Part shown: piece after piece, positions 1-8,920 of the stretch
How positions within the stretch are numbered: the stretch's first letter is position 1
How the letters are laid out: the number at the start of each line of letters is the position of its first letter
NCBI GenBank assembly: GCA_022709105.1
Contig: JAKIXL010000053.1
Location: forward strand, 1 to 8,920
From: Thermoplasmatota archaeon
GTDB lineage: Archaea > Thermoplasmatota > Thermoplasmata > Methanomassiliicoccales > Methanomassiliicoccaceae
Direction of reading: 5' to 3'
Length of the DNA: 8,920 nt
Position numbers and translations under genes: made by a program
The notes under the pieces: model-generated
Database searches by the model: none
Seen by the model: the letters and a program-made list of their open reading frames with translations, nothing else
What the model was told of the DNA's origin: nothing

Positions 1-533
1 AAGATGCCTCTCTTCAGAGCGGTGAACCCTGCCCCTGCCGAACCGATAGGGCCGGTCACGGCCAGAAGGTCCCCTTTCCGAGCACCGCGACGGAGCAGCA
101 GCTTGCCCTTGTCCGCCACACCCAAGGCGGTGCCGGCGATGACCATGCTGTCCCCTTCCTTTGTATCCCCCCCTAGGAGTTCCGCGCCGACGAACGTGCA
201 GCAGTCCTGAGCCCCCTTGCTGATGCGAGCAAGGTCCTCGTATGGCAGGTCGCGAGGCAGCACGTATGCCAAGAGCAGGCCTACCGGCCGTGCGCCCATG
301 GCCGCAATGTCGCTGAAGTTCACCGCTGCGGCGAACCAGCCTATCTGCCAATCTGTCATCCCCTTGGGAAGATGGGAGGCCCGGGAGACCACGTCGGTCG
401 AGATTACCACGCACTTATCTCCGAGCTCCACCGCCGCGGCATCATCCCCAGGGCCCACAACGGCGCTGGTCCTCACATCATCAAGGAGCTGCGAGATGAC
501 GGCCTTTTCCCCGAGATCGGCCAAGGTCTTCAT
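1..533 (-). CDS. thiL: Thiamine-monophosphate kinase, C-terminus beyond window
   Basis: The family phosphorylates thiamine monophosphate to thiamine diphosphate with ATP, the last step of thiamine cofactor synthesis in the cytoplasm. The first 177 codons are present; the family is about 300-330 residues, so the C-terminal half lies outside. Visible motifs are GPGDDAA (27-33) and STD (45-47), both nucleotide/Mg sites, then NFSDIAAMGARP (72-83), GGDT (121-124) and RRGARKGDLLAVTGPIG (148-164). This order is typical of ThiL within the PurM/SelD/HypE-like superfamily, and SDIAAMGA is its signature. I chose the ATG at 533 because the product then opens MKTLADLGEK as in the family, and because a TATA box sits 26-27 bp upstream, which implies a leaderless message. 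An in-frame ATG at 578 would add 15 unfamiliar residues and lie upstream of that TATA box. A GGAGGT at 541-552 lies unusually far (about 13 nt) from ATG 533. Confidence 0.93.
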   Translation of the reverse strand, partial: MKTLADLGEKAVISQLLDDVRTSAVVGPGDDAAAVELGDKCVVISTDVVSRASHLPKGMTDWQIGWFAAAVNFSDIAAMGARPVGLLLAYVLPRDLPYEDLARISKGAQDCCTFVGAELLGGDTKEGDSMVIAGTALGVADKGKLLLRRGARKGDLLAVTGPIGSAGAGFTALKRGI

Positions 534-555
534 GCTCTGCGAACAGACCTCCAGG

Positions 556-563
556 CATATATC
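556..563 (-). promoter_or_regulatory. TATA box for thiL (leaderless)
   Basis: On the minus strand the sequence reads GGAAAT then GATATATG, a purine-rich BRE-like stretch followed by a TATA element. Its centre (about 559.5) is 26-27 bp from the A of the thiL ATG at 533. This is the usual archaeal distance from TATA box to transcription start, so the message should begin at or next to the start codon. Confidence 0.6.
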
Positions 564-802
564 ATTTCCATTTTTCATCGCTAAGTGCCGCTTTCACCGA
601 GGGCGATCGTGCATGGGGCTGATGCTGGATCGGACAATCTCTCGAGACCGCTCTCCCCATTTTCCGATCGGATTTGATGACAGGATGCGTAAGGTCATTC
701 CTCAGGACGATATGGTCCACCGGTAGGCGATGAACATCCTCCGCTTGCCCGATCAAGCACTGGTCGGATGCCAGGCGCGACGCCGGGGTCAAGAGTGGGA
801 CC

Positions 803-1153
803 ATGCTCGACCCTCAACCGGACACCAACCTCATGATCATTGACCCGTCGATCTCCATGCCGGAGGGGCGGGAAGGGGCCTCGGCGGCGAAGGGAGGGCA
901 GGGACTCCCAGGTCGTGTTGAGGGAACGTTCTATGCGATCACCGCGTTCGAATGCCATCACCACCTCTCGATGGATGAGATGGTGAAAGGCGTGCAAGCC
1001 TGCATTGACCTCCTGGCGGTCAGTAGTCCTCGTGGCCTTTTCGAACATACCTCATTCAAACCGGAGAGGGACCGAGATGGGCGAGCGTTATTGGCAACGG
1101 TCCTCGATGGAGAACTGCAGCATCCTGGAGGAAGCGACCGTCCACAACGCTAG
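803..1153 (+). CDS. Doubtful hypothetical protein or gene remnant
   Basis: This is an open frame of 116 codons from an ATG. I do not recognise the product. Residues about 1-36 look non-coding in composition. From residue about 38 (VEGTFYAITAFECHHHLSM, then a helical segment up to LLAV) the codon choice resembles real genes of the window, with frequent C or G in third positions. The ribosome-binding site is weak (GAGTGG) and no TATA box is evident. It is either the middle of a frameshifted older gene whose later parts lie in other frames down to about 1239, or a chance ORF. The overlapping minus-strand frame (695-1048) is arginine-rich and looks like a shadow. Confidence 0.2.
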   Translation: MLDPQPDTNLMIIDPSISMPEGREGASAAKGGQGLPGRVEGTFYAITAFECHHHLSMDEMVKGVQACIDLLAVSSPRGLFEHTSFKPERDRDGRALLATVLDGELQHPGGSDRPQR

Positions 1154-1283
1154 GGCCGACGGAACGCTTCCCGACCATGGCGGAGGAGCGCATCGATATC
1201 TTGCGCCGCTCCGGCTTAGAGGCAGTGGAAATGCTGTGATGATCATGCGTTCAAGCGGGCCCCGATCGCTCGAGGCAGGCAAA

Positions 1284-1308
1284 CGGTTCAAGCATTTTGG
1301 CCGGGGCC
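1284..1308 (-). repeat. Copy A of a 25-nt dispersed repeat
   Basis: Read on the minus strand it begins GGCCCCGGC and continues CAAAATGCTTGAA, then CCG. It matches copy B (5187-5214) at 24 of 25 positions if a 3-nt gap is allowed. Read on the plus strand it encodes RFKHFGRG in the frame ending at 1337. Confidence 0.4.
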
Positions 1309-1429
1309 TACGCTTATCTCCGCGCATGGGTCCATAAGTGCACCTGAGTGTTGTTGAAAAGGTGTTTTTCGCAGCTACGGTCCGGACCCTGTCGGAAAGC
1401 TCCCGATACCATGTCATACCTTATCAAAG

Positions 1430-1438
1430 TTTAAAATA
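1430..1438 (+). promoter_or_regulatory. TATA box for the larA operon
   Basis: TTTAAAATA preceded by CAAAG is a close match to the archaeal BRE/TATA consensus and the most AT-rich spot for hundreds of bases. The predicted transcription start is about 1460, which leaves a leader of about 10 nt before the ATG at 1470 and excludes the in-frame ATG at 1338 as a start. No other promoter-like sequence occurs before the two downstream genes. Confidence 0.65.
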
Positions 1439-1469
1439 CGGGGTCCATCATTCCAAAACGGACCAAGCC

Positions 1470-2711
1470 ATGAGATTGACCATCCCTTACGGAAAGGACG
1501 ATAAGCAGTTCCTCAATCTGCCAGAGGAGAACTTCGCCGGTAAGATATATCCTAAGGACGTGGAGGTCGGCGACGAGCGCGCTGAGCTGCGGCGGGCCCT
1601 CGACAGGCCGGTGGCCGGGCCCTCTCTGGAAAAGTTCCTGGAGGGCGGCAAGGACATCGTGTTCATCGTGAACGACGGGACCAGACCGACGCCGACCTGC
1701 AAGGTCCTGGATGCGCTGGCCGAGAGGATGGACCTCACAAATGCCAGGTACCTCATCGCCACAGGCGATCACCGGGCCCCGACCGAGGGCGAGTACCGCT
1801 TCATATTCGGCAAACATCTGGAGAAGCTCCGTCCCAACATCCATTCTCATAGCTCCAGGAACGATCCCTGCGTGTTCCTGGGCACCTCAAAGAACGGCAC
1901 CGAGATGCTGGTGAACGAGATGGCGGTGAACGCCGATCGGCTCGTGATCATCACATCGGTGGAACCGCACTACTTCGCCGGTTATACCGGCGGCAGGAAA
2001 TCGTTCCTGCCAGGTGTGGCGGCCAGGAAGACGATCGAACAGAACCACAAGCTGGCGATGAAGCAAGAGGCACAGGCCCTGGTGCTCGAGGGGAACCCGG
2101 TGCACGAGGACATGATGGATGCCCTGAAGGTGGTGAAGGACAAGCCCATATTCGCTATCCAAATAGTGCTCGATCGCCACCAGAACATCTACAAGGTAGA
2201 GGCCGGGGACCTGCACGAGTCGTTCGCCCACGCCGTCAAGTGGGCCAATGAGGTGTTCTCTGTCAAGATCAAGGAAAAAGCGGAAATCGTGGTATCGATC
2301 GCCCCATACCCCATGGACGTTGACCTTTACCAGTCACAGAAGGCGCTGGACAACGGCAAGTGGGCCCTCAAGGAAGGGGGAACGATCATCATGGTCTCGA
2401 AGTGCCGGGAAGGCATAGGGCACGATACCTTCCTTCAACAACTATCCTTGTCCGAGGACCCCCGCAAGGTCCTGGAGAACCTGGCCAAGGAGTACAAGCT
2501 CGGCTACCATAAGGCGGCCAAGATGGCCGAGATCGCAGTATGGGCTGATGTCTGGGCCGTCACAGATCTCGACCCTGAGCTATTGAAAAAGGCCAACATC
2601 AGGCCGTTCGCCACGGTGCAAGAGGCCGTCGACGCCGCGCTGGCCAAGAACAAGGATGCCAAGGTGCTGATCAACATGGATGGCAGCATAACAGTTCCCA
2701 GGGTGGGATAG
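1470..2711 (+). CDS. larA: LarA-type nickel-dependent racemase/epimerase
   Basis: The product has 413 residues, the usual length for lactate racemase family proteins. These enzymes use a nickel-pincer nucleotide cofactor to racemise or epimerise alpha-hydroxy acids. Key positions known from Lactiplantibacillus LarA map at constant offsets. The NDGTRP motif (68-73) supplies D69 and R72 (D72/R75 there). ATGDHRAPT gives H101 (H108) and EPHYFAGYTGGRKSFLPG gives H167 and K177 (H174 and the cofactor-bearing K184). NH at 192-193 gives the nickel ligand H193 (H200), and K291 matches K298. Nothing obvious is missing, so it should be catalytically competent. The substrate is open, because family members act on lactate, malate, phenyllactate and sugar acids. 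The cofactor-making larB/larC/larE genes are not in the window. It is first in an operon; the next gene starts one base after its stop. The start was chosen from the TATA position and the MRLTIPYG beginning. Confidence 0.88.
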   Translation: MRLTIPYGKDDKQFLNLPEENFAGKIYPKDVEVGDERAELRRALDRPVAGPSLEKFLEGGKDIVFIVNDGTRPTPTCKVLDALAERMDLTNARYLIATGDHRAPTEGEYRFIFGKHLEKLRPNIHSHSSRNDPCVFLGTSKNGTEMLVNEMAVNADRLVIITSVEPHYFAGYTGGRKSFLPGVAARKTIEQNHKLAMKQEAQALVLEGNPVHEDMMDALKVVKDKPIFAIQIVLDRHQNIYKVEAGDLHESFAHAVKWANEVFSVKIKEKAEIVVSIAPYPMDVDLYQSQKALDNGKWALKEGGTIIMVSKCREGIGHDTFLQQLSLSEDPRKVLENLAKEYKLGYHKAAKMAEIAVWADVWAVTDLDPELLKKANIRPFATVQEAVDAALAKNKDAKVLINMDGSITVPRVG

Positions 2712-2712
2712 G

Positions 2713-3816
2713 ATGGCCGACAAGATCGATGCGAAGAACCTCATGGATGTCAAGAAAGAGATGATGACCTGCACCATGTGCGGGTTTTGCAAGAGCGTGT
2801 GCCCGGCCTTCGAGGACATCGGTTGGGACCCCGGGGTGGCGAGAGGCAGGGTGATCCTCTCTTACGGGCTCATGCAGGGCGAGATACCGGCCGACGAGTC
2901 GGTGGTGGAGGCCCTCTATCAATGCACTACCTGCAAGGACTGCGAGCGTCGTTGCCCGTCAAAAGTGAAGGTCGTCGACATAGTCGAGCGGGCCCGAAGG
3001 GATATCGTCGCCTCAGGAATAATGCTGCCCAGCCACCGCAAGGTGGTCGAAAGCATCCTCGACAACGGCAACCCCTACGCGGAGCGGCGCCCCGTCCCCG
3101 AGGTCTTCGGGGAAAAGCCTCGAAAGGCCAAGCTTGGCTACTTCATCGGGTGCACCTCGGCCTATCGGAACCCTTCGACGGCAAAGGCCACGATATCGAT
3201 ATTGAAGAAGCTGGGCGAGGACTACACCCTGCTGGATGAGTCCTGCTGCGGCAGCGTCATGGAAAGGATCGGTTGGAAGGAGGAGGATGTGGCGGCGCAG
3301 ATGAGGAAGAACATCGACGCCATAGTCTCCCTGGGAGTGGAGGAGGTGATCTTCTCCTGCGCAGGTTGCTACCGCATGTTCAAGGAGGAGTACCCGAGGC
3401 ATGTGGACGTGCCGTTCAAGGTGCTCCATGTGGCTGAATATCTAGCGTCAAAGGACCTCAAGCCTTCAAAGCTGGAGAAGAAGATAACCTACCATGACCC
3501 GTGCCACCTGGGACGGCACACCAAGGTGTACAAGGCACCGAGAGAGGTGCTGGCCAAGATCCCGGGAGCGCAGTTCAAGGAGATGCCCCGCAACGCCGAG
3601 ACCTCTCGCTGCTGTGGCGGCGGTGGAGGCGTCCGCTCCGCTTACCCCGAGCTGTCCGGTCAGATCGCGGAGAAGCGGGTGGAGGAGGCCAAGTTCGCCG
3701 ATGTCATGGTGACCACCTGCCCATTCTGCGTGAACAACCTGAAAGTTGGAAAGGAAAGCTCCAAGGCCAAGGTGGAGATAATCGACCTGGTCGAGCTGAT
3801 CGAGCCTCTGCTATGA
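2713..3816 (+). CDS. HdrD/GlcF-like Fe-S oxidoreductase, two CCG domains
   Basis: The 367-residue cytosolic protein has two classical [4Fe-4S] motifs, C20-C23-C26-C30P and C71-C74-C77-C81P. These are followed by two complete CCG (cysteine-rich) domains: C147, C178-C179, C216-C219 and C264, C300-C301, C336-C339. This is the layout of HdrD (a fusion of HdrC and HdrB), GlcF, GlpC and LldE-type subunits. In HdrB the CCG domains hold non-cubane [4Fe-4S] clusters that act on disulfides; in GlcF/GlpC relatives they transfer electrons from a flavoprotein. No flavin domain is present, so an FAD partner should be encoded elsewhere. The start is one base after the larA stop, with GGGTGG ending 6 bases before the ATG, so translation is probably coupled. 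Position beside larA favours hydroxy-acid oxidation, but HdrD activity cannot be excluded from sequence. Confidence 0.85.
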   Translation: MADKIDAKNLMDVKKEMMTCTMCGFCKSVCPAFEDIGWDPGVARGRVILSYGLMQGEIPADESVVEALYQCTTCKDCERRCPSKVKVVDIVERARRDIVASGIMLPSHRKVVESILDNGNPYAERRPVPEVFGEKPRKAKLGYFIGCTSAYRNPSTAKATISILKKLGEDYTLLDESCCGSVMERIGWKEEDVAAQMRKNIDAIVSLGVEEVIFSCAGCYRMFKEEYPRHVDVPFKVLHVAEYLASKDLKPSKLEKKITYHDPCHLGRHTKVYKAPREVLAKIPGAQFKEMPRNAETSRCCGGGGGVRSAYPELSGQIAEKRVEEAKFADVMVTTCPFCVNNLKVGKESSKAKVEIIDLVELIEPLL

Positions 3817-3817
3817 T

Positions 3818-4963
3818 ATGTTCGTCCGCCTAAGGCGCTACCGCTCGTGGGCCGAGGTCCGCGAAGACCTCTCAAGGATGAGGATGCCTATGCCACCTAT
3901 GCCGGACGCTCCCCTTCCTCTCGCTCTCTTCATCGAGGGGGTGGGAGCTGAGGATGCATCGAGGCGGGCCAGGGATGCCGGGCTCACCTCGAGCTTCTCG
4001 GACATGGGACATCATCCTCGGGCCTGCCTACTGGGCGGTGCGGACGACCTGCCTTCCGGAGCCAGAGCGTTGCTGGGGGACGATGCTGCGGCAAAGGTCA
4101 TCGAGGCCTATCGCTCGAACGATGCCCCGTCAATGGCCATGCCCGGCGGTAAGCTGATATTCGACCGCCCTCTGGTCATGGGCATTTTGAACCTGACGCC
4201 CGATTCCTTCTCCGACGGCAGCTCGCACACCACTGTCGAGGCAAGCGTTCTCAGAGCGTTGGCGATGACCGAAGAGGGGGCGGACATAATCGACATCGGA
4301 GGCGAATCCACACGGCCTGGGGCGGACCCTGTCAGCGCGGAGGAAGAGCTTCGCCGCACCATCCCGGTGATCAAGGAACTAGCAGAGCGCACCGACGTGC
4401 CAATATCCATAGACACGATGAAGCCAGAGGTGGCGAGGGAGGCCGTCCGGGCGGGTGCCCAGATGATCAACGACGTTTCCGGGCTTAGGTCCAGAGAGAT
4501 GGTGGAGGTGGTCGCGGACACAGGAGCGCCCGTAGTGCTCATGCACATGTTGGGCGAGCCCAAGACCATGCAGAAAGAGGTCAGCGAGGAGAGCTACGAT
4601 GATGTCATCAGCGACATCATGTGGTTCTGGGAGCAGCGGATGGAGACGGCAGAAAGCTTGGGACTGCCAAGGGAGCGCATCCTGCTCGATCCCGGCATCG
4701 GCTTCGGCAAGCTCCAGGAACACAATCTCGATATACTGCGGCGGACCAGGGAGCTGAGGTGCAGTGGACGCCCTCTGTTGATCGGGGCCTCGAGAAAGGG
4801 CTTCGTGAGCAGGATAGCCGGAGACACCGCAGAGCGCCGTGGCGGGGGCAGCTTAGCCGCCGCGGCGGTGGCAGCCCTTAACGGGGCGAACGTCGTGCGG
4901 GTGCATGATGTGCCGGAGACCGTGGGGGCTCTCAGGCTGCTCGATGCCCTCCGATCTAGATGA
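3818..4963 (+). CDS. folP: Dihydropteroate synthase, archaeal type with N-terminal extension
   Basis: The enzyme joins a dihydropterin diphosphate to p-aminobenzoate, or to a ribosylated aminobenzene in methanopterin makers. The product has 381 residues. The TIM-barrel core starts near 117 and carries the family motifs in order: MGILNLTPDSFSDGS (121-135), GGESTRPGA (161-169), SIDT (197-200), INDVSG (217-222), MHMLGEPKTMQ (242-252), DPGIGFGK (291-298), GASRKGF (323-329) and RVHD (361-364). The first about 110 residues form an extra domain that bacterial enzymes of about 280 residues lack; archaeal homologues often carry one. The ATG lies one base after the previous stop, with no strong ribosome-binding site, so it probably depends on read-through translation in the operon. 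Whether the product is folate or tetrahydromethanopterin cannot be told from this sequence. Its 3' end overlaps the opposite-strand gene by 8 bp. Confidence 0.93.
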   Translation: MFVRLRRYRSWAEVREDLSRMRMPMPPMPDAPLPLALFIEGVGAEDASRRARDAGLTSSFSDMGHHPRACLLGGADDLPSGARALLGDDAAAKVIEAYRSNDAPSMAMPGGKLIFDRPLVMGILNLTPDSFSDGSSHTTVEASVLRALAMTEEGADIIDIGGESTRPGADPVSAEEELRRTIPVIKELAERTDVPISIDTMKPEVAREAVRAGAQMINDVSGLRSREMVEVVADTGAPVVLMHMLGEPKTMQKEVSEESYDDVISDIMWFWEQRMETAESLGLPRERILLDPGIGFGKLQEHNLDILRRTRELRCSGRPLLIGASRKGFVSRIAGDTAERRGGGSLAAAAVAALNGANVVRVHDVPETVGALRLLDALRSR

Positions 4964-5150
4964 AGGACAGCACCCATATCAGCACCAGGGCGGCCGCCGC
5001 GCCGACGTAGAACAGCTTCATCCTAGCGCTCCCCCGTTTCCTCTTGACGGCGTGATCGACCATGCACTGCTCCGAGCAATATTCCAAGCGCTCGGACATG
5101 GGATCATCGCAGTTGGGACAGTGCTTGTGCGGCGGAAGATGTACGGGCAT
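4956..5150 (-). CDS. Small zinc-finger protein with C-terminal membrane anchor
   Basis: The protein has 64 residues. C11-x2-C14 and C25-x3-C29 form a compact four-cysteine zinc site (CPNC and YCSEQC). A basic linker KRKRGSARMK (36-45) leads to one hydrophobic helix of about 18 residues (46-63) that ends the chain. This is the layout of the short archaeal zinc-ribbon/transmembrane proteins of the DUF2116 type. The positive linker before the helix predicts a tail-anchored protein with the zinc domain in the cytoplasm. Function is unknown. The small size, clean zinc motif and clear helix make it a real gene. A TATA-like box 29 bp upstream of the ATG suggests a leaderless message. Alternatively it is co-transcribed with the doubtful ORF ending 10 bases upstream. 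Confidence 0.8.
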   Translation of the reverse strand: MPVHLPPHKHCPNCDDPMSERLEYCSEQCMVDHAVKRKRGSARMKLFYVGAAAALVLIWVLSFI

Positions 5151-5160
5151 ACATTGGTTG

Positions 5161-5388
5161 CTATGTCCCGGCCTGATTTAATCCTTGGCCCCGGCGAACA
5201 AAATGCTTGAAGCGGTTCCGGACAAGCGGCCCCATGAGCCCTTCGGTCCCCCGCGGTACGATGGTCGCCGCCACATGGCCGATGGGCATCTCGGCCTCGA
5301 CATCTAGCTCCAAGCAGGACTGCGAACCGTTAGGCTGCCGATCTGATCGAGGCCCCGCTCCGTAGAGTTCTCCATCGCCGGCCCGCAT
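5161..5388 (-). CDS. Doubtful small hypothetical protein or gene remnant
   Basis: This is an open minus-strand frame of 75 codons from an ATG; the frame stays open further upstream without a better start. The last 45 or so residues look coding, with codon choice like the neighbours: CLELDVEAEMPIGHVAATI and then a segment ending in VRNRFKHFVRRGQ. I do not recognise the family. There is no ribosome-binding site or convincing promoter at the ATG. It stops 10 bases before the zinc-protein start, so it could be the first gene of a pair, or the surviving 3' end of a broken gene. Part of it corresponds to the 28-nt repeat copy B, whose copy A also reads RFKHF in an open frame. Confidence 0.3.
   Translation of the reverse strand: MRAGDGELYGAGPRSDRQPNGSQSCLELDVEAEMPIGHVAATIVPRGTEGLMGPLVRNRFKHFVRRGQGLNQAGT
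5176..5182 (-). promoter_or_regulatory. Possible TATA box for the small zinc protein
   Basis: On the minus strand AAGG is followed by ATTAAAT, centred 29 bp from the ATG at 5150. The spacing suits an archaeal promoter with almost no leader. The match to consensus is moderate. The box would lie inside the last codons of the weak ORF 5161-5388 if that ORF is real. Confidence 0.4.
5187..5214 (+). repeat. Copy B of the dispersed repeat
   Basis: On the plus strand it reads GGCCCCGGC, then GAA, then CAAAATGCTTGAA and GCG. It differs from copy A (1284-1308, opposite orientation) only by the 3-nt insertion and one substitution. Both copies lie in the two gene-poor parts of the window. Confidence 0.4.
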
Positions 5389-5550
5389 GGCCGTCGCTGC
5401 CTGCAGGCCAATAGATGATGGCGCTTCAGGGCCAAATGAGCAGACCGCATAAAGGAAAATGGTGCTGGGACGGAGACGGTGCTGTGGGCCGATAGGGACA
5501 TCAGGTCCTGCCTGTCCGATCCCCTCACGCTCGGGACGGCGGTCTAAGGA
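5215..5550. other. Stretch without a confident gene
   Basis: Apart from the weak minus-strand ORF ending at 5161, this stretch shows no recognisable gene, RNA or repeat. The open frame of that ORF continues upstream to 5661 but becomes arginine-rich and antisense to the 5582 gene, so I do not accept the longer version. A second minus-strand frame ending near 5304 contains MENSTERGLDQIGSL and could be chance. Confidence 0.4.
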
Positions 5551-5558
5551 TTTATCTA
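5551..5558 (+). promoter_or_regulatory. Possible TATA box for the 5582 gene
   Basis: TAAGGA followed by TTTATCTA resembles a BRE plus TATA element. Its centre is 27-28 bp from the ATG at 5582. Initiation here would exclude the upstream ATG at 5558 and fit either a leaderless start at 5582 or a 30-nt leader to the ATG at 5612. Confidence 0.45.
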
Positions 5559-5581
5559 TGGATAATCTCTTCCGGGCGGTC

Positions 5582-5974
5582 ATGTGGAAGGTACTCGGAG
5601 TGGAGACCATAATGATCAAGGCAGATGAAGTATGGGTAGATCGCCTGACCAATCTGTCCAAGAGGAAAAGGGACAGTCCCCGGTTCCGTGAGCTCCTGGG
5701 AAAGGCCGATCTAAGATACTTCTATGATACCGTCAGGAACGTCCACGTGTTCTTCCTCAAGTTTCCCCCGACCGTCACCATGGAGGAACTGGAGTTCCTG
5801 CGAGATTATATCGTCAAGCTCCATGCCGCTGCCAACGTCCCGGTCGTGGAGTTCGACGGGGTCCCCCAGCGAGCCTCTGTGGCCATGACCTCGGAGGAGG
5901 ACGTGGACGACCACAAGAAGCGCAACAATTGGTGGGAGAAGGAAGATGGCGGGGAGCAGACCCAGTCCATCTGA
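5582..5974 (+). CDS. Uncharacterised small protein with charged C-terminal tail
   Basis: The product has 130 residues and I do not recognise the family. It looks coding: C/G-ending codons dominate and the composition is balanced. Residues about 12-95 look folded and soluble, with alternating strand- and helix-like stretches (VRNVHVFFLKFPP, then MEELEFLRDYIVKLHAA, then NVPVVEFDG). From about 103 the chain is acidic and polar (TSEEDVDDHKKRNNWWEKED) and probably disordered. There is no signal peptide or membrane segment. Start choice is uncertain. ATG 5582 lies where transcription should begin from the TATA box, implying a leaderless message. ATG 5612 has GGAG six bases upstream and would give MIKADEVW. 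ATG 5558 overlaps the TATA box and is unlikely. It converges on the trpD-like gene, with 6 bases between the stops. Confidence 0.7.
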   Translation: MWKVLGVETIMIKADEVWVDRLTNLSKRKRDSPRFRELLGKADLRYFYDTVRNVHVFFLKFPPTVTMEELEFLRDYIVKLHAAANVPVVEFDGVPQRASVAMTSEEDVDDHKKRNNWWEKEDGGEQTQSI

Positions 5975-6003
5975 CCAGGGCTAGGCCGGTATGCCTGCCC
6001 TGG
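5975..6003. terminator. Strong hairpin between convergent genes
   Basis: CCAGGGC (5975-5981), a single bulged T, then AGGC (5983-5986) pairs with GCCT (5993-5996) and GCCCTGG (5997-6003). That makes 11 base pairs around a 6-nt CGGTAT loop. It begins right after the stop of the 5582 gene and covers the last codons of the trpD-like gene, so it could mark both 3' ends. No T-rich tract follows on either strand, and archaeal terminators normally rely on one, so a role in RNA 3'-end stability is equally possible. Confidence 0.35.
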
Positions 6004-7099
6004 CGATCAGGCCCTGAAGCTTCGACGCCCCTATTGCGGGGTCCGCACTCTGAGACCTCGTCCAATCCTGAAGCTTCCTCAATCCTCGACCGTTCTCCAA
6101 GATGGACCTAGCCCTTTCCACGCCGTTCCGCAATGAATCCGCTCGCCCCATCATGTAGAGGATAGGGGAGGCGTTCAGGCAGACGATGTCCTGCTCAACC
6201 CGGCCCCCACCGCCTCCAAGGATGCGGAGCAGCCTCAGGGCCTCCGACTCTCGGTCACCGGAGGTCAGCAGGTCCTCCTCCCTCGCAAGCCGGATGCCCA
6301 TCATTTCGGGCGTTATGAAATAGGATGAGATGGACCCTTTGCGGTCCAGCTCCATGATGGTCGTCGGTCCGAGGGTGGACATCTCATCCATCCCTTTGGT
6401 GCCTGGTCCGTTCTTTCCGTGAAATACAATGGCCCTATGATATCCAAGCTCCCTCATCGTCTCCAAGGTGGGAGCGATCATAGAGGGCGAGTACACCCCC
6501 CTCACGCCAAAGCGAGGCAGAGCAGGGTTCGCCATCGAGCCGGCGACATTGAGGATCGTTCCGAACCTGATCTGAGACAGTATCCTCCCAAGCGCCGTGG
6601 GGTGCACCTTGGAAGACATCCCGTTGAACACCCCTATGCCTGCGGTCTCGATGCTCCTCTTCACCACGGACACATCACACTCCACGTCCACGCCGAGCGC
6701 CTCAATGATGTCGATGGTCCCACATCGAGAGGTTATCGCTCTCGCACCATGCCTGGCCATGACCACCCCATCGGCAGCAGCGATGATCGAGGCGGCGGTG
6801 GATATGTTGAACGTCTTAAGCGCGTCCATGCCCGTTCCGCAGTTGTCCACCAGAGGCGAGCTGACGTTAGGGGTGACCTTGATGGTATCGAACTCATAGA
6901 TGGCCTCCCAGCTTCCCGCGATCTCCTGGGGCGTGGCGCCCTTGGCAGTGATGGCGGCAAGGAACGCCCCTTGCTGCAGGTCCGGCTGTTCGCGGAGAAG
7001 CACCTGCCGAAAAAGCTCCTTGGCCTGGGCACGGGAGAGGTGCTTTCCTTTCATGAGGCTGTTCACTGCTGCACCGAAGGTCCGTAGCTTCTCATCCAT
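5981..7099 (-). CDS. TrpD-like phosphoribosyltransferase, acceptor probably not anthranilate
   Basis: The 372-residue product has the N-terminal helical domain (about 5-70) and the glycosyltransferase fold of anthranilate phosphoribosyltransferase. Family motifs remain for the sugar-diphosphate and metal site: GTGMD (88-92), KTFNISTAA (95-103), ITSRCGTIDIIEALGV (122-137) and the metal-binding DE (238-239). Several differ from true TrpD. GTGGDG has become GTGMDA, KHGNR has become RHGAR (Asn to Ala119), and LGPLxNP has become AGSMANP (Pro to Ser188). A few residues are inserted between HG (227-228) and GMDE. The Asn and Pro are anthranilate contacts in characterised TrpD, so the acceptor is likely different. 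No other trp gene is nearby. It starts 4 bases after the dehydrogenase stop, with GGGTGA five bases before the ATG, so the two form an operon. TrpD, as annotation pipelines may call it, remains a fallback. Confidence 0.85.
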   Translation of the reverse strand: MDEKLRTFGAAVNSLMKGKHLSRAQAKELFRQVLLREQPDLQQGAFLAAITAKGATPQEIAGSWEAIYEFDTIKVTPNVSSPLVDNCGTGMDALKTFNISTAASIIAAADGVVMARHGARAITSRCGTIDIIEALGVDVECDVSVVKRSIETAGIGVFNGMSSKVHPTALGRILSQIRFGTILNVAGSMANPALPRFGVRGVYSPSMIAPTLETMRELGYHRAIVFHGKNGPGTKGMDEMSTLGPTTIMELDRKGSISSYFITPEMMGIRLAREEDLLTSGDRESEALRLLRILGGGGGRVEQDIVCLNASPILYMMGRADSLRNGVERARSILENGRGLRKLQDWTRSQSADPAIGASKLQGLIARAGIPA

Positions 7100-7103
7100 C
7101 CTT

Positions 7104-8138
7104 TCACCCTTTCATGTCATCGATCACACACTTGAGCGCAAGGCGTTCCTCGATCAATGTGAACGCCTCCTCGATCGAGGTCAGGGGCATCCTCCTTGAG
7201 ATAAGGGGGCGAAGGTCCAACTTTCCCGATGCCAGGGTCCGCAACGCCTCCGCATCGCTGGAGCTGGTGCAGCCGTACGCTCCTACCAGAACAAGCTCGC
7301 GGTAGTGCAGAATATTCATGTCCAAGGTGCTCGGGGGTTCTCCCTTACGTAGACCGGAGAAAGCGCAAATGCGTCCGCGCGGGGCCATGGCCCTGAGAAG
7401 TCCATCGTTCACTTTCACCTTCGGAGTGGCAAGGATGGCCACGTCCGCCCCTCTCATGGCCGTTCGTTCCGCGATCGCATCGAACGGGCCATCTGCAGGG
7501 TCCACCGCATGCTCCGCGCCCATGCGCAGCGCGAGCCTCCTTCGCTCCGGGTCAGGCTCGATCACGAGAACGCTCGCTCCTTTGCTCGAGGCAAGGGCCG
7601 CGTGCATCAGGCCCATTGGCCCTGCGCCGAAGATGGCCACCACGTCGTCTTGTTCGACCCGGGCCATAGATTGGCCGTGCACGCAGCACGCCAAAGGCTC
7701 GGTCAAGGTCGCCATGACGGGGTCCAGGTCATCGGGGAGGAGGTTCGTTCCATGGCCGTCGATCAGCTGCCCAGGGATGGCCATCCGCTCAGCGAAGCCG
7801 CCGTCCTGATTGAATCCGACGATGCCTTGTTCGGAACACATGTTGTCCTGGCCTCTCAGACAGGACCGGCATCTCCCGCAGGGGATCCCTGGCCATATCT
7901 GTATGGCATCGCCGACGCTTAGGCTTGAGGAACGTGTCTTCACCACGGTCCCCACGACCTCATGGCCAAGCACGCGGGGATAGGTCAGGTCCTTCTGCCC
8001 GGTCCTGACCATCTTGATGTCGGTCGGGCAAACGGCACATGCGATGACCTCGATGATCGCTCCGCGCTCAGGACATCGAGGCTCGCATATATCCTCGATC
8101 GACAGGTTCCCGGGCCCTCTCAGAACTGCAGCCCTCAT
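7104..8138 (-). CDS. Zinc-dependent medium-chain alcohol/polyol dehydrogenase
   Basis: The product has 344 residues, standard for the medium-chain dehydrogenase family of sorbitol and threonine dehydrogenases. Catalytic zinc ligands are C37 (in VCPTD), H59-E60 (in LGHE) and probably E147 (in TEPLACC). The structural zinc lobe is complete: C87, C90, C93 and C101. The Rossmann motif is GAGPMG (171-176), and the acidic E194 at the end of the next strand favours NAD over NADP. It should oxidise a secondary alcohol or polyol to a ketone, or the reverse; the substrate is unknown. The ATG at 8138 has GAGGGTGG four bases upstream and opens MRAAVLRGPG as in the family. The in-frame ATG at 8165 lies inside an operator-like palindrome and is rejected. 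First gene of an operon with the TrpD-like enzyme. Confidence 0.88.
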   Translation of the reverse strand: MRAAVLRGPGNLSIEDICEPRCPERGAIIEVIACAVCPTDIKMVRTGQKDLTYPRVLGHEVVGTVVKTRSSSLSVGDAIQIWPGIPCGRCRSCLRGQDNMCSEQGIVGFNQDGGFAERMAIPGQLIDGHGTNLLPDDLDPVMATLTEPLACCVHGQSMARVEQDDVVAIFGAGPMGLMHAALASSKGASVLVIEPDPERRRLALRMGAEHAVDPADGPFDAIAERTAMRGADVAILATPKVKVNDGLLRAMAPRGRICAFSGLRKGEPPSTLDMNILHYRELVLVGAYGCTSSSDAEALRTLASGKLDLRPLISRRMPLTSIEEAFTLIEERLALKCVIDDMKG

Positions 8139-8142
8139 GTTG

Positions 8143-8150
8143 CCACCCTC
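8143..8150 (-). promoter_or_regulatory. Ribosome-binding site deciding the dehydrogenase start
   Basis: GAGGGTGG on the minus strand ends four bases before ATG 8138. It combines GAGG and GGTG, both complementary to the 3' end of archaeal 16S rRNA. It lies directly next to operator-like palindrome 1, so a bound protein or a folded RNA there could affect translation as well. Confidence 0.6.
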
Positions 8151-8171
8151 GGTTGGATGGTCCATCCAACC
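8151..8171. promoter_or_regulatory. Operator-like palindrome 1
   Basis: This is a perfect inverted repeat with 10-base arms (GGTTGGATGG and CCATCCAACC) around a single T. The core GTTGGAT-N5-ATCCAAC (8152-8170) is shared exactly with palindrome 2. It lies just downstream of the predicted transcription start (about 8173) and directly upstream of the ribosome-binding site, a position where a bound repressor would block the polymerase. Confidence 0.7.
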
Positions 8172-8196
8172 ACGTTCGGTGCACGACAGCTAGGAG

Positions 8197-8203
8197 TATA
8201 TAT
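8197..8203 (-). promoter_or_regulatory. TATA box for the dehydrogenase/TrpD-like operon
   Basis: On the minus strand AAAACCG is followed by ATATATA, a good archaeal BRE/TATA pair. The predicted transcription start is about 8173, giving a leader of about 35 nt that carries palindrome 1 and the ribosome-binding site. Confidence 0.6.
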
Positions 8204-8222
8204 CGGTTTTCCAGGGTCAGTG

Positions 8223-8247
8223 AGAGTTGGATTATATATCCAACTCT
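8223..8247. promoter_or_regulatory. Operator-like palindrome 2 with embedded TATA
   Basis: This is a perfect inverted repeat with 10-base arms (AGAGTTGGAT and ATCCAACTCT) around TATAT. It shares the core GTTGGAT-N5-ATCCAAC (8226-8244) with palindrome 1; the two centres (8235 and 8161) are 74 bp apart. The AT-rich middle could act as a second TATA box for the operon, which binding would hide. It could also fold as a hairpin after the ferredoxin-like gene, which stops 18 bases away, but the shared core argues for a protein-binding site. Confidence 0.65.
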
Positions 8248-8265
8248 ATCTGGATGATGGATGGA

Positions 8266-8920
8266 TCAGGCCTCATCCTTAACCATAACGCCTGTCCTCC
8301 TAACTGTGTAGGAGATTACCGGGACCGAGCTGTTCGCCCTCTTGCGAGCTTCGTGGACGAGCCGTTTCATCTGCCCGCAGCAGGGTACTTCCATATGCAC
8401 CACGGTGATCTCCTTGATCGAGTTTGCTTTTAGGATCGACGCCAGTTTTTCGATGAACTCCTCGTTATCATCGAGCTTGGGGCATCCTATGACCGTGGTT
8501 CGGTCCCTGATGAACGAAGGATGCATGGCAGCAAAGGCGAATGCCGTGCAATCACCGGCCAGAAGGAGCTTCGCATCCTTGAAGTACGGTGCGTTCGGGG
8601 AGACGAGTCGCATCTGTATAGGCCAGTTGGTCAGCTCGGAGCCCTCCCCGACCGGAGTGACCGGTCCGGCCATAGGCTTCATGACCATAGGCACCGCCGA
8701 AGGGCAGCCGCATTCCGCGTTCCTTTTCTTGGACTCGACGTATCTCATCGCCGCCTCCTCATCGAACGGCTCCGCCTCCCGCTCCACGATCCTCAGAGCC
8801 CCTTGGGGGCAGTTGCCCAGGCATGCGCCCAACCCGTCGCAGAACATGTCTCGGACGACCCTTGCCTTTCCATCCCTGATCTCAATCGCGCCTTCGGCAC
8901 ATGCTTCCACGCACTTGCCG
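8266..8920 (-). CDS. Ferredoxin-like Fe-S protein, N-terminus beyond window
   Basis: The window shows 217 C-terminal residues. The visible part opens GKCVEACAEGAI, the end of one [4Fe-4S] motif, followed by CDGLGACLGNCPQGA, a second one with unusual spacing. A long C-terminal domain follows with conserved-looking cysteines: CGCPS, GDCTAF, IGCPKLDD and EVPCCG. It also has the stretch NWPIQMRLVSPNAPYF. This layout is familiar from stand-alone 4Fe-4S ferredoxin-like proteins of strict anaerobes (clostridia and methanogens); their function is not established as far as I know, and an electron-carrier or redox-sensing role is an inference. No membrane segment is visible. It lies upstream of the dehydrogenase operon on the same strand, but that operon has its own promoter and operators in the 127-bp gap. 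The GTG at 8910 is internal, not a start, because the cysteine motif continues upstream of it. Confidence 0.85.
   Translation of the reverse strand, partial: GKCVEACAEGAIEIRDGKARVVRDMFCDGLGACLGNCPQGALRIVEREAEPFDEEAAMRYVESKKRNAECGCPSAVPMVMKPMAGPVTPVGEGSELTNWPIQMRLVSPNAPYFKDAKLLLAGDCTAFAFAAMHPSFIRDRTTVIGCPKLDDNEEFIEKLASILKANSIKEITVVHMEVPCCGQMKRLVHEARKRANSSVPVISYTVRRTGVMVKDEA

Follow-up and report, generated by a model that had tools for sequence, protein, structure and literature searches.

Twin palindromes before a Methanomassiliicoccales operon as members of a predicted corrinoid and cobalt operator set, with a DUF4443 protein as candidate regulator

Two perfect palindromes stand in front of a small operon in a contig of a Thermoplasmatota archaeon of the order Methanomassiliicoccales (JAKIXL010000053.1, positions 1 to 8,920; this whole stretch of 8,920 nucleotides is hereafter the window). 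The operon encodes a zinc-type medium-chain dehydrogenase and a TrpD-like phosphoribosyltransferase. Which genes do such palindromes control, and which protein reads them? Comparison with related genomes suggests that they probably belong to a set of operators that Methanomassiliicoccales carry at corrinoid and cobalt genes. The likely binder is a winged-helix DUF4443 protein, with repression predicted when B12 or cobalt is sufficient.

The element GTTGGAT-N5-ATCCAAC occurs in two exact copies in the window: the proximal operator GTTGGATGGTCCATCCAAC (8152..8170) and the distal operator GTTGGATTATATATCCAAC (8226..8244), neither assigned to a strand, with a start-to-start distance of 74 bp. Their centres lie 23 and 97 bp upstream of the dehydrogenase ATG, respectively. 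The spacers (GGTCC and TATAT) and the flanks are unlike between the two copies. Sequence, spacing and unlike flanks agree with an earlier note on this DNA, which had described two perfect palindromes with a common core. When up to three mismatches were allowed, three matches were found in the window against 0.38 expected, a number reached in one of 200 shuffles. Both palindromes fall inside the gap bounded by the dehydrogenase ATG at 8138 (minus strand) and the end, at 8266, of an upstream Fe-S gene (8266..8919, minus strand), an open frame with weak 4Fe-4S matches which extends past the window end and whose stop codon delimits the promoter region. A predicted TATA-like octamer, GATATATA (8197..8204, minus strand), was placed between the operators by a hand-made TATA score; the distal centre is 35 bp away and the proximal one 39 bp, which makes a transcription start near the proximal palindrome plausible.

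The window operon does not stand alone: it belongs to a set in which corrinoid and cobalt genes predominate. We surveyed 41 genomes of the order, including the window's genome (80% complete, 319 contigs); records matched by homology assign this group to Methanomassiliicoccus and other Methanomassiliicoccales. In the window's genome there are ten distinct places with zero to two mismatches, one of which appears in two overlapping registers; the reversed pattern gave one. The exact 12-base core was present in 37 of the 41 genomes (0-18 copies per genome across all 41), while the reversed control gave 0-1. Target genes were read from site-bearing stretches of the window's genome and of eleven others, covering part of the sites of each of the eleven. 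Of the 109 exact sites in these stretches, 98 lie between -70 and 260 bp of a predicted gene start, compared with 1193 of 4000 positions drawn at random from the same stretches. A random scatter of the core, an outcome that the earlier note had named as refuting its reading, is not what these counts and this enrichment at gene starts display.

Genes beside the own-genome sites were named by Pfam or NCBIfam, or by clustering with an annotated relative. They encode CobO, CobT, a CobN/Mg-chelatase-type protein, CbiM, a ChlI-like ATPase, McrB, a CbiT-like methyltransferase (below its family cut-off) and, at two places, the window's dehydrogenase; one further site lies between genes for a zinc-ribbon protein and a helicase-like protein. 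Recurrent targets in the relatives are BtuF-like binding proteins, CobT, CobO, CbiM, CobN, CobQ, CobB/CbiA, CbiC, CbiT (with CbiL after it), CbiX/CfbA with precorrin-2 dehydrogenase, a BtuC-like permease and a NifH/NifD-like protein. The label "corrinoid/cobalt/Ni-tetrapyrrole" fits 75 of the 109 sites, 12 of which are the window operon itself; it takes in surface propeller and dockerin-type binding proteins, for which the evidence is thin. Four further genomes provided held-out stretches, in which 12 of the 25 exact sites adjoin a gene of the labelled types.

Some of these results weigh against a corrinoid and cobalt regulon. About a third of the sites (34 of 109) have no labelled target beside them, and the ill-fitting targets include a permease of the trimethylamine N-oxide/amino-acid type, an acetate-uptake-like protein, the radical SAM protein CbpB with an amidohydrolase, and several unknowns. 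One held-out genome (G015) displayed no labelled-type gene at any of its five sites. Moreover, several targets are binding-protein/BtuC-like importers that score below family cut-offs and could carry other chelates.

Two of the target loci are worth describing on their own. In the window's genome, mcrB is preceded at about 80 bp by a one-mismatch operator (L040:2873-2895), which did not recur at mcrB among the sites fetched from relatives. In another locus (L104:3464-4963 and 5194-6261), the gene for CbpB (TIGR04163, above cut-off) is divergent from the amidohydrolase gene with an operator between them, and this pair recurs elsewhere in the family. We also considered whether family f6 had switched to a GGGAT-N5-ATCCC operator and rejected it: six f6 genomes have 2, 3, 0, 3, 1 and 0 copies against 1-5 in six others, although variants of the site with one or two mismatches are present at the DUF4443 locus in G019, G022 and G025.

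The promoter of the window operon is itself conserved. Close orthologues of the TrpD-like protein (54-100% identity) were found in 25 of the 41 genomes, 17 of which also hold a second match of about 30% identity. The dehydrogenase gene adjoins the TrpD-like gene in all 25, and in all except G018 the dehydrogenase start has a site with at most two mismatches no more than 120 bp away. The earlier note had named absence of the palindromes before orthologous operons as a refuting outcome; a site is present before 24 of 25. Its proposal of selection for protein contact is supported, and the palindromes are best read as putative protein-binding operators under selection.

Within the window's family the twin arrangement is found in every one of the 15 genomes, with centres 66-74 bp apart (74, 72, 72, 73, 72, 72, 72, 73, 67, 67, 71, 67, 66, 67 and 66 bp). 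One genome of another family (G027) has two sites at 26 bp, and the remaining eight have a single site. Other operons of the set have twin sites at 70-73 bp, and also pairs at 23-35 bp. The family spacings correspond to 6.3 to 7.0 helical turns and cluster at 66-67 and 71-74 bp, about half a turn apart; helical phase is therefore not kept, and the suggestion that the two operators share one helical face is not supported. The suggestion of two alternative promoters fares no better, since the TATAT of the distal site is an AT-rich spacer typical of the whole set and a separate TATA-like element is conserved between the sites.

When octamers were ranked by the TATA score, the best one fell between the twin sites in 12 of the 15 promoters; its distance is 35-37 bp to the distal centre and 30-39 bp to the proximal one. 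The distance to the distal site is exactly 35 bp in all eight members of the window's genus and in G009, and among the other three promoters the second-best octamer lies at 36 bp in two. Judged from sequence comparison, the twin is a promoter-centred design, with one site at the predicted start region and the other upstream of the TATA-like box. The narrow range of the distal distance, set against the varying proximal one, is what might be seen if the distal site activated from upstream of TATA and only the proximal site repressed. Nevertheless, most oriented sites have the AT peak upstream of them, which is the position of a repressor at the start, and many promoters have a single site, so that we regard activation as unlikely.

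Repression through the proximal site, with the distal site adding occupancy, seems probable to us. It is suggested by the usual site position: across 74 oriented exact sites the AT peak lies 34-37 bp upstream of the site centre, and a site about 35 bp downstream of this peak would cover the start region. In seven single-site promoters of family f3, the site centre lies 11-13 bp downstream of a TATA-like box in four (six with the second-best octamer). At the twin promoter, the proximal site would cover the start region, while the distal site, about 35 bp upstream of TATA, would add another contact on the far side of the TATA box. Two dimers may cooperate here, and the comparison does not require a fixed helical face for it.

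The search for a co-conserved regulator, which the earlier note had called for, now allows a candidate to be named. Its co-distribution with the operator and its adjacency to it make it quite likely that a DUF4443 protein is the binder. Among 150 genomes of the class, the exact site was found in 46, mostly as a single copy in distant families, and DUF4443 in 43. The site is present in 39 of the 43 genomes with DUF4443 and in 7 of the 107 without it (Fisher 3e-24). Because genomes are related, families were also tallied by hand, giving 10 of 10 against 3 of 19 (p 1.4e-5); treating f26 as a miss lowers the first count to 9 of 10 (p 1.9e-4). In families f13, f15 and f21 the single site lies between a surface-protein gene and the winged-helix DUF4443 gene. 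Meanwhile, f16 and some f13 genomes carry it elsewhere, before DUF4430 or BtuF-like genes. The site lies 59-337 bp from the DUF4443 domain in twelve genomes of six families, where a rough count expects about 0.14. Adjacency is also seen inside the order (G028, G031, G017 and G040).

The DUF4443 domain scores above its Pfam cut-off in the window's genome (G000:C1, 3.9e-32) and in the neighbours of sites outside the order (66-93 bits against 27). The protein has the PH0730-type N-terminal winged helix, with the Pyrococcus structure 2P8T aligned over residues 14-194; these structure searches show folds only, and PH0730-like_N is at or slightly below its Pfam cut-off in several members. The gene often adjoins that of S-adenosylmethionine (SAM) synthetase (by Pfam in two order loci, elsewhere by eye), an arrangement that is not present in the window's genome (L237). 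Autoregulation was rejected: no upstream site was found in the order loci examined, and a sample of 80 named loci of about 6 kb each around the DUF4443 gene gave one site, with one mismatch, 429 bp upstream.

Several observations count against the DUF4443 protein as the binder. In the same 80 loci, a site with at most one mismatch was found in just four, three of them at most 200 bp downstream, so that the DUF4443 gene is not adjacent to a site in most lineages. One genome with eight sites (G004, 67% complete) has no DUF4443, while four others (G153, G086, G112 and G137) have DUF4443 and no exact site. The sites of G099 and G118 lie inside predicted open reading frames, so that 39 of 43 could be read as 37. 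Most order genomes encode a paralogue of about 330 residues which could bind as well. The binder might then be this DUF4443-DUF2111 paralogue, or another regulator outside our list of candidates, which was not exhaustive, with the 194-residue DUF4443 protein merely a frequent neighbour. G020 (99% complete) fits such a reading, as it retains three sites with DUF4443 only as a paralogue of about 338 residues. However, the site co-occurs with a lone DUF4443 match in a frame of about 200-250 residues in f13, f15, f16, f17 and f21, and the association extends over ten families. We therefore consider another binder unlikely. The one longer paralogue that we examined (L241:1210-2175, plus strand, in G029) has a C-terminal DUF2111.

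A FUR-family protein, as a cobalt- or nickel-sensing Fur relative, is a far less probable binder than the DUF4443 protein. Its gene (L039:5543-5962, minus strand; PF01475, 1.2e-14) directly adjoins the cbiM operator in the window's genome. However, the protein is found in only 21 of the 41 genomes; 20 of the 37 site-bearing genomes have it and 17 do not, and it is absent from two that are 99% complete and hold 11 and 10 sites (G002 and G003). We rejected it on this distribution; as a gene patchy in relatives, it is perhaps a target or a second metal regulator. An HTH_10 protein (L037:3640-4380, minus strand), which has a Cys/His-rich beginning and an HVO_A0563_N domain, lies about 3 kb from operators in a few genomes and was likewise rejected as regulator, since homologues (E <=1e-25) were found in only 12 of the 41 genomes. 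Lrp-like genes were seen by eye beside single sites in G009 and G027, one genome each.

What the DUF4443 protein would sense is a more evenly balanced matter. Read from the targets, the signal may be B12, a precursor or cobalt, with SAM a further possibility. The DUF4443 proteins share 17 invariant residues with no Cys or His among them; with metal ligands not conserved, a small molecule is favoured, and in our view there is an even chance that the signal is a corrinoid or a metabolite of its pathway rather than the bare metal. That the palindromes, being inverted repeats, might act as RNA hairpins (terminator, attenuator or riboswitch part) is scarcely credible, since a transcript started from the TATA-like box would leave out the distal copy, which lies upstream of this box, no terminator-like site was found in 8050-8350, and the window and seven site loci (eight sources) matched no Rfam family at gathering score, the cobalamin aptamer of the B12 riboswitch included.

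The enzymes of the operon add to the question of what is being controlled. The dehydrogenase (7104..8138, minus strand; Pfam ADH_N and ADH_zinc_N) has L-threonine 3-dehydrogenases as its nearest solved structures and falls under every NCBIfam equivalog cut-off. The TrpD-like protein (5981..7099, minus strand; Glycos_transf_3) passes the TIGR01245 cut-off, with 260 bits against 199. TrpD is defined by the motifs GTGGD and KHGN and by an arginine stretch of the anthranilate site. In the 25 orthologues, GTGGD is changed to GTGMD or GSGMD in all, KHGN to KHGA or RHGA in 24, and LSxxxFGT replaces the stretch of VRKEL-GxRT type in all, while five or six compared canonical TrpD copies retain GTGG, KHGN and the arginine. 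This changed pattern in all 25 makes another substrate probable, suggesting that the enzyme is a phosphoribosyltransferase for another acceptor and not, or not only, a tryptophan enzyme. Within the predicted corrinoid regulon, a lower-ligand base is an attractive guess for this acceptor. More speculatively, the two enzymes would serve corrinoid metabolism, for example in nucleotide-loop or lower-ligand assembly.

A wider reading can be put forward tentatively, and we think it has the lesser share of probability. DUF4443/PH0730-type proteins, in which a winged helix is joined to an AspRS-insertion-like domain, might be an archaeal counterpart of the B12 riboswitch, sensing a corrinoid or pathway metabolite directly and governing synthesis, cobalt supply and surface B12 capture across the class, and the dehydrogenase/TrpD-like pair might perform an unrecognised step of archaeal cobamide assembly. 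DUF4430 occurs in vertebrate B12 binders (PMC4350170). It is clear in the f16 targets and weak in the beta-propeller targets, and hence the latter are not called B12 binders. In f16 (L186:1529-2565, L187 and L190), the gene for a DUF4430 protein has a single operator before it and a DUF6580 membrane protein gene after it, which is a possible pair for B12 capture and uptake. Elsewhere in the window (1338-4963, plus strand), Pfam identified a run of genes for a lactate-racemase-type LarA, an Fe-S/cysteine-rich-domain protein and a pterin-binding protein of the dihydropteroate-synthase type.

A DUF4443 regulon of this kind would assign a role to a domain of unknown function that comes from a structural-genomics entry, and would tie B12 and cobalt supply to methanogens relying on corrinoid methyltransferases, among them gut lineages. 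It would also mark the conserved TrpD-like enzyme, with its changed active site, as a candidate for an unrecognised reaction related to corrinoids. With an operator named, targets listed and one regulator proposed, the idea can be tested directly.

How does this system compare with known ones? PH0730 of Pyrococcus horikoshii (PDB 2P8T; PH0730-like_N and DUF4443) is a hypothetical protein in PDB and is named in a table of Pyrococcus regulators (PMC6316755). We found no operator, ligand or targets for it in the open-licence literature searched. Neither the operator reported here, nor any DUF4443 regulon, nor a B12/cobalt regulator of archaea was found described there, a search that does not establish their absence from print. 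In the E. coli type of NikR operator, half-sites are about 16 bp apart. NikR and FUR-family regulators control metal uptake genes in other microbes (PMC2667541, PMC3087415); the FUR relative here is not co-distributed with the operator. The winged helices of CggR and of MarR-type proteins count among the closest known systems, and a winged-helix regulator with palindromic operators is of a known kind. As far as can be told, the regulator family, its second domain, the archaeal target set and the TATA-flanking twin are new. In many bacteria, the B12 riboswitch tunes genes of B12 synthesis, B12 uptake and cobalt supply (PMC7689651). The set described here resembles it in this choice of targets, but the riboswitch is RNA, whereas the present elements are palindromes of 19 bp in DNA, which match no Rfam family and one of which stands upstream of a TATA-like box.
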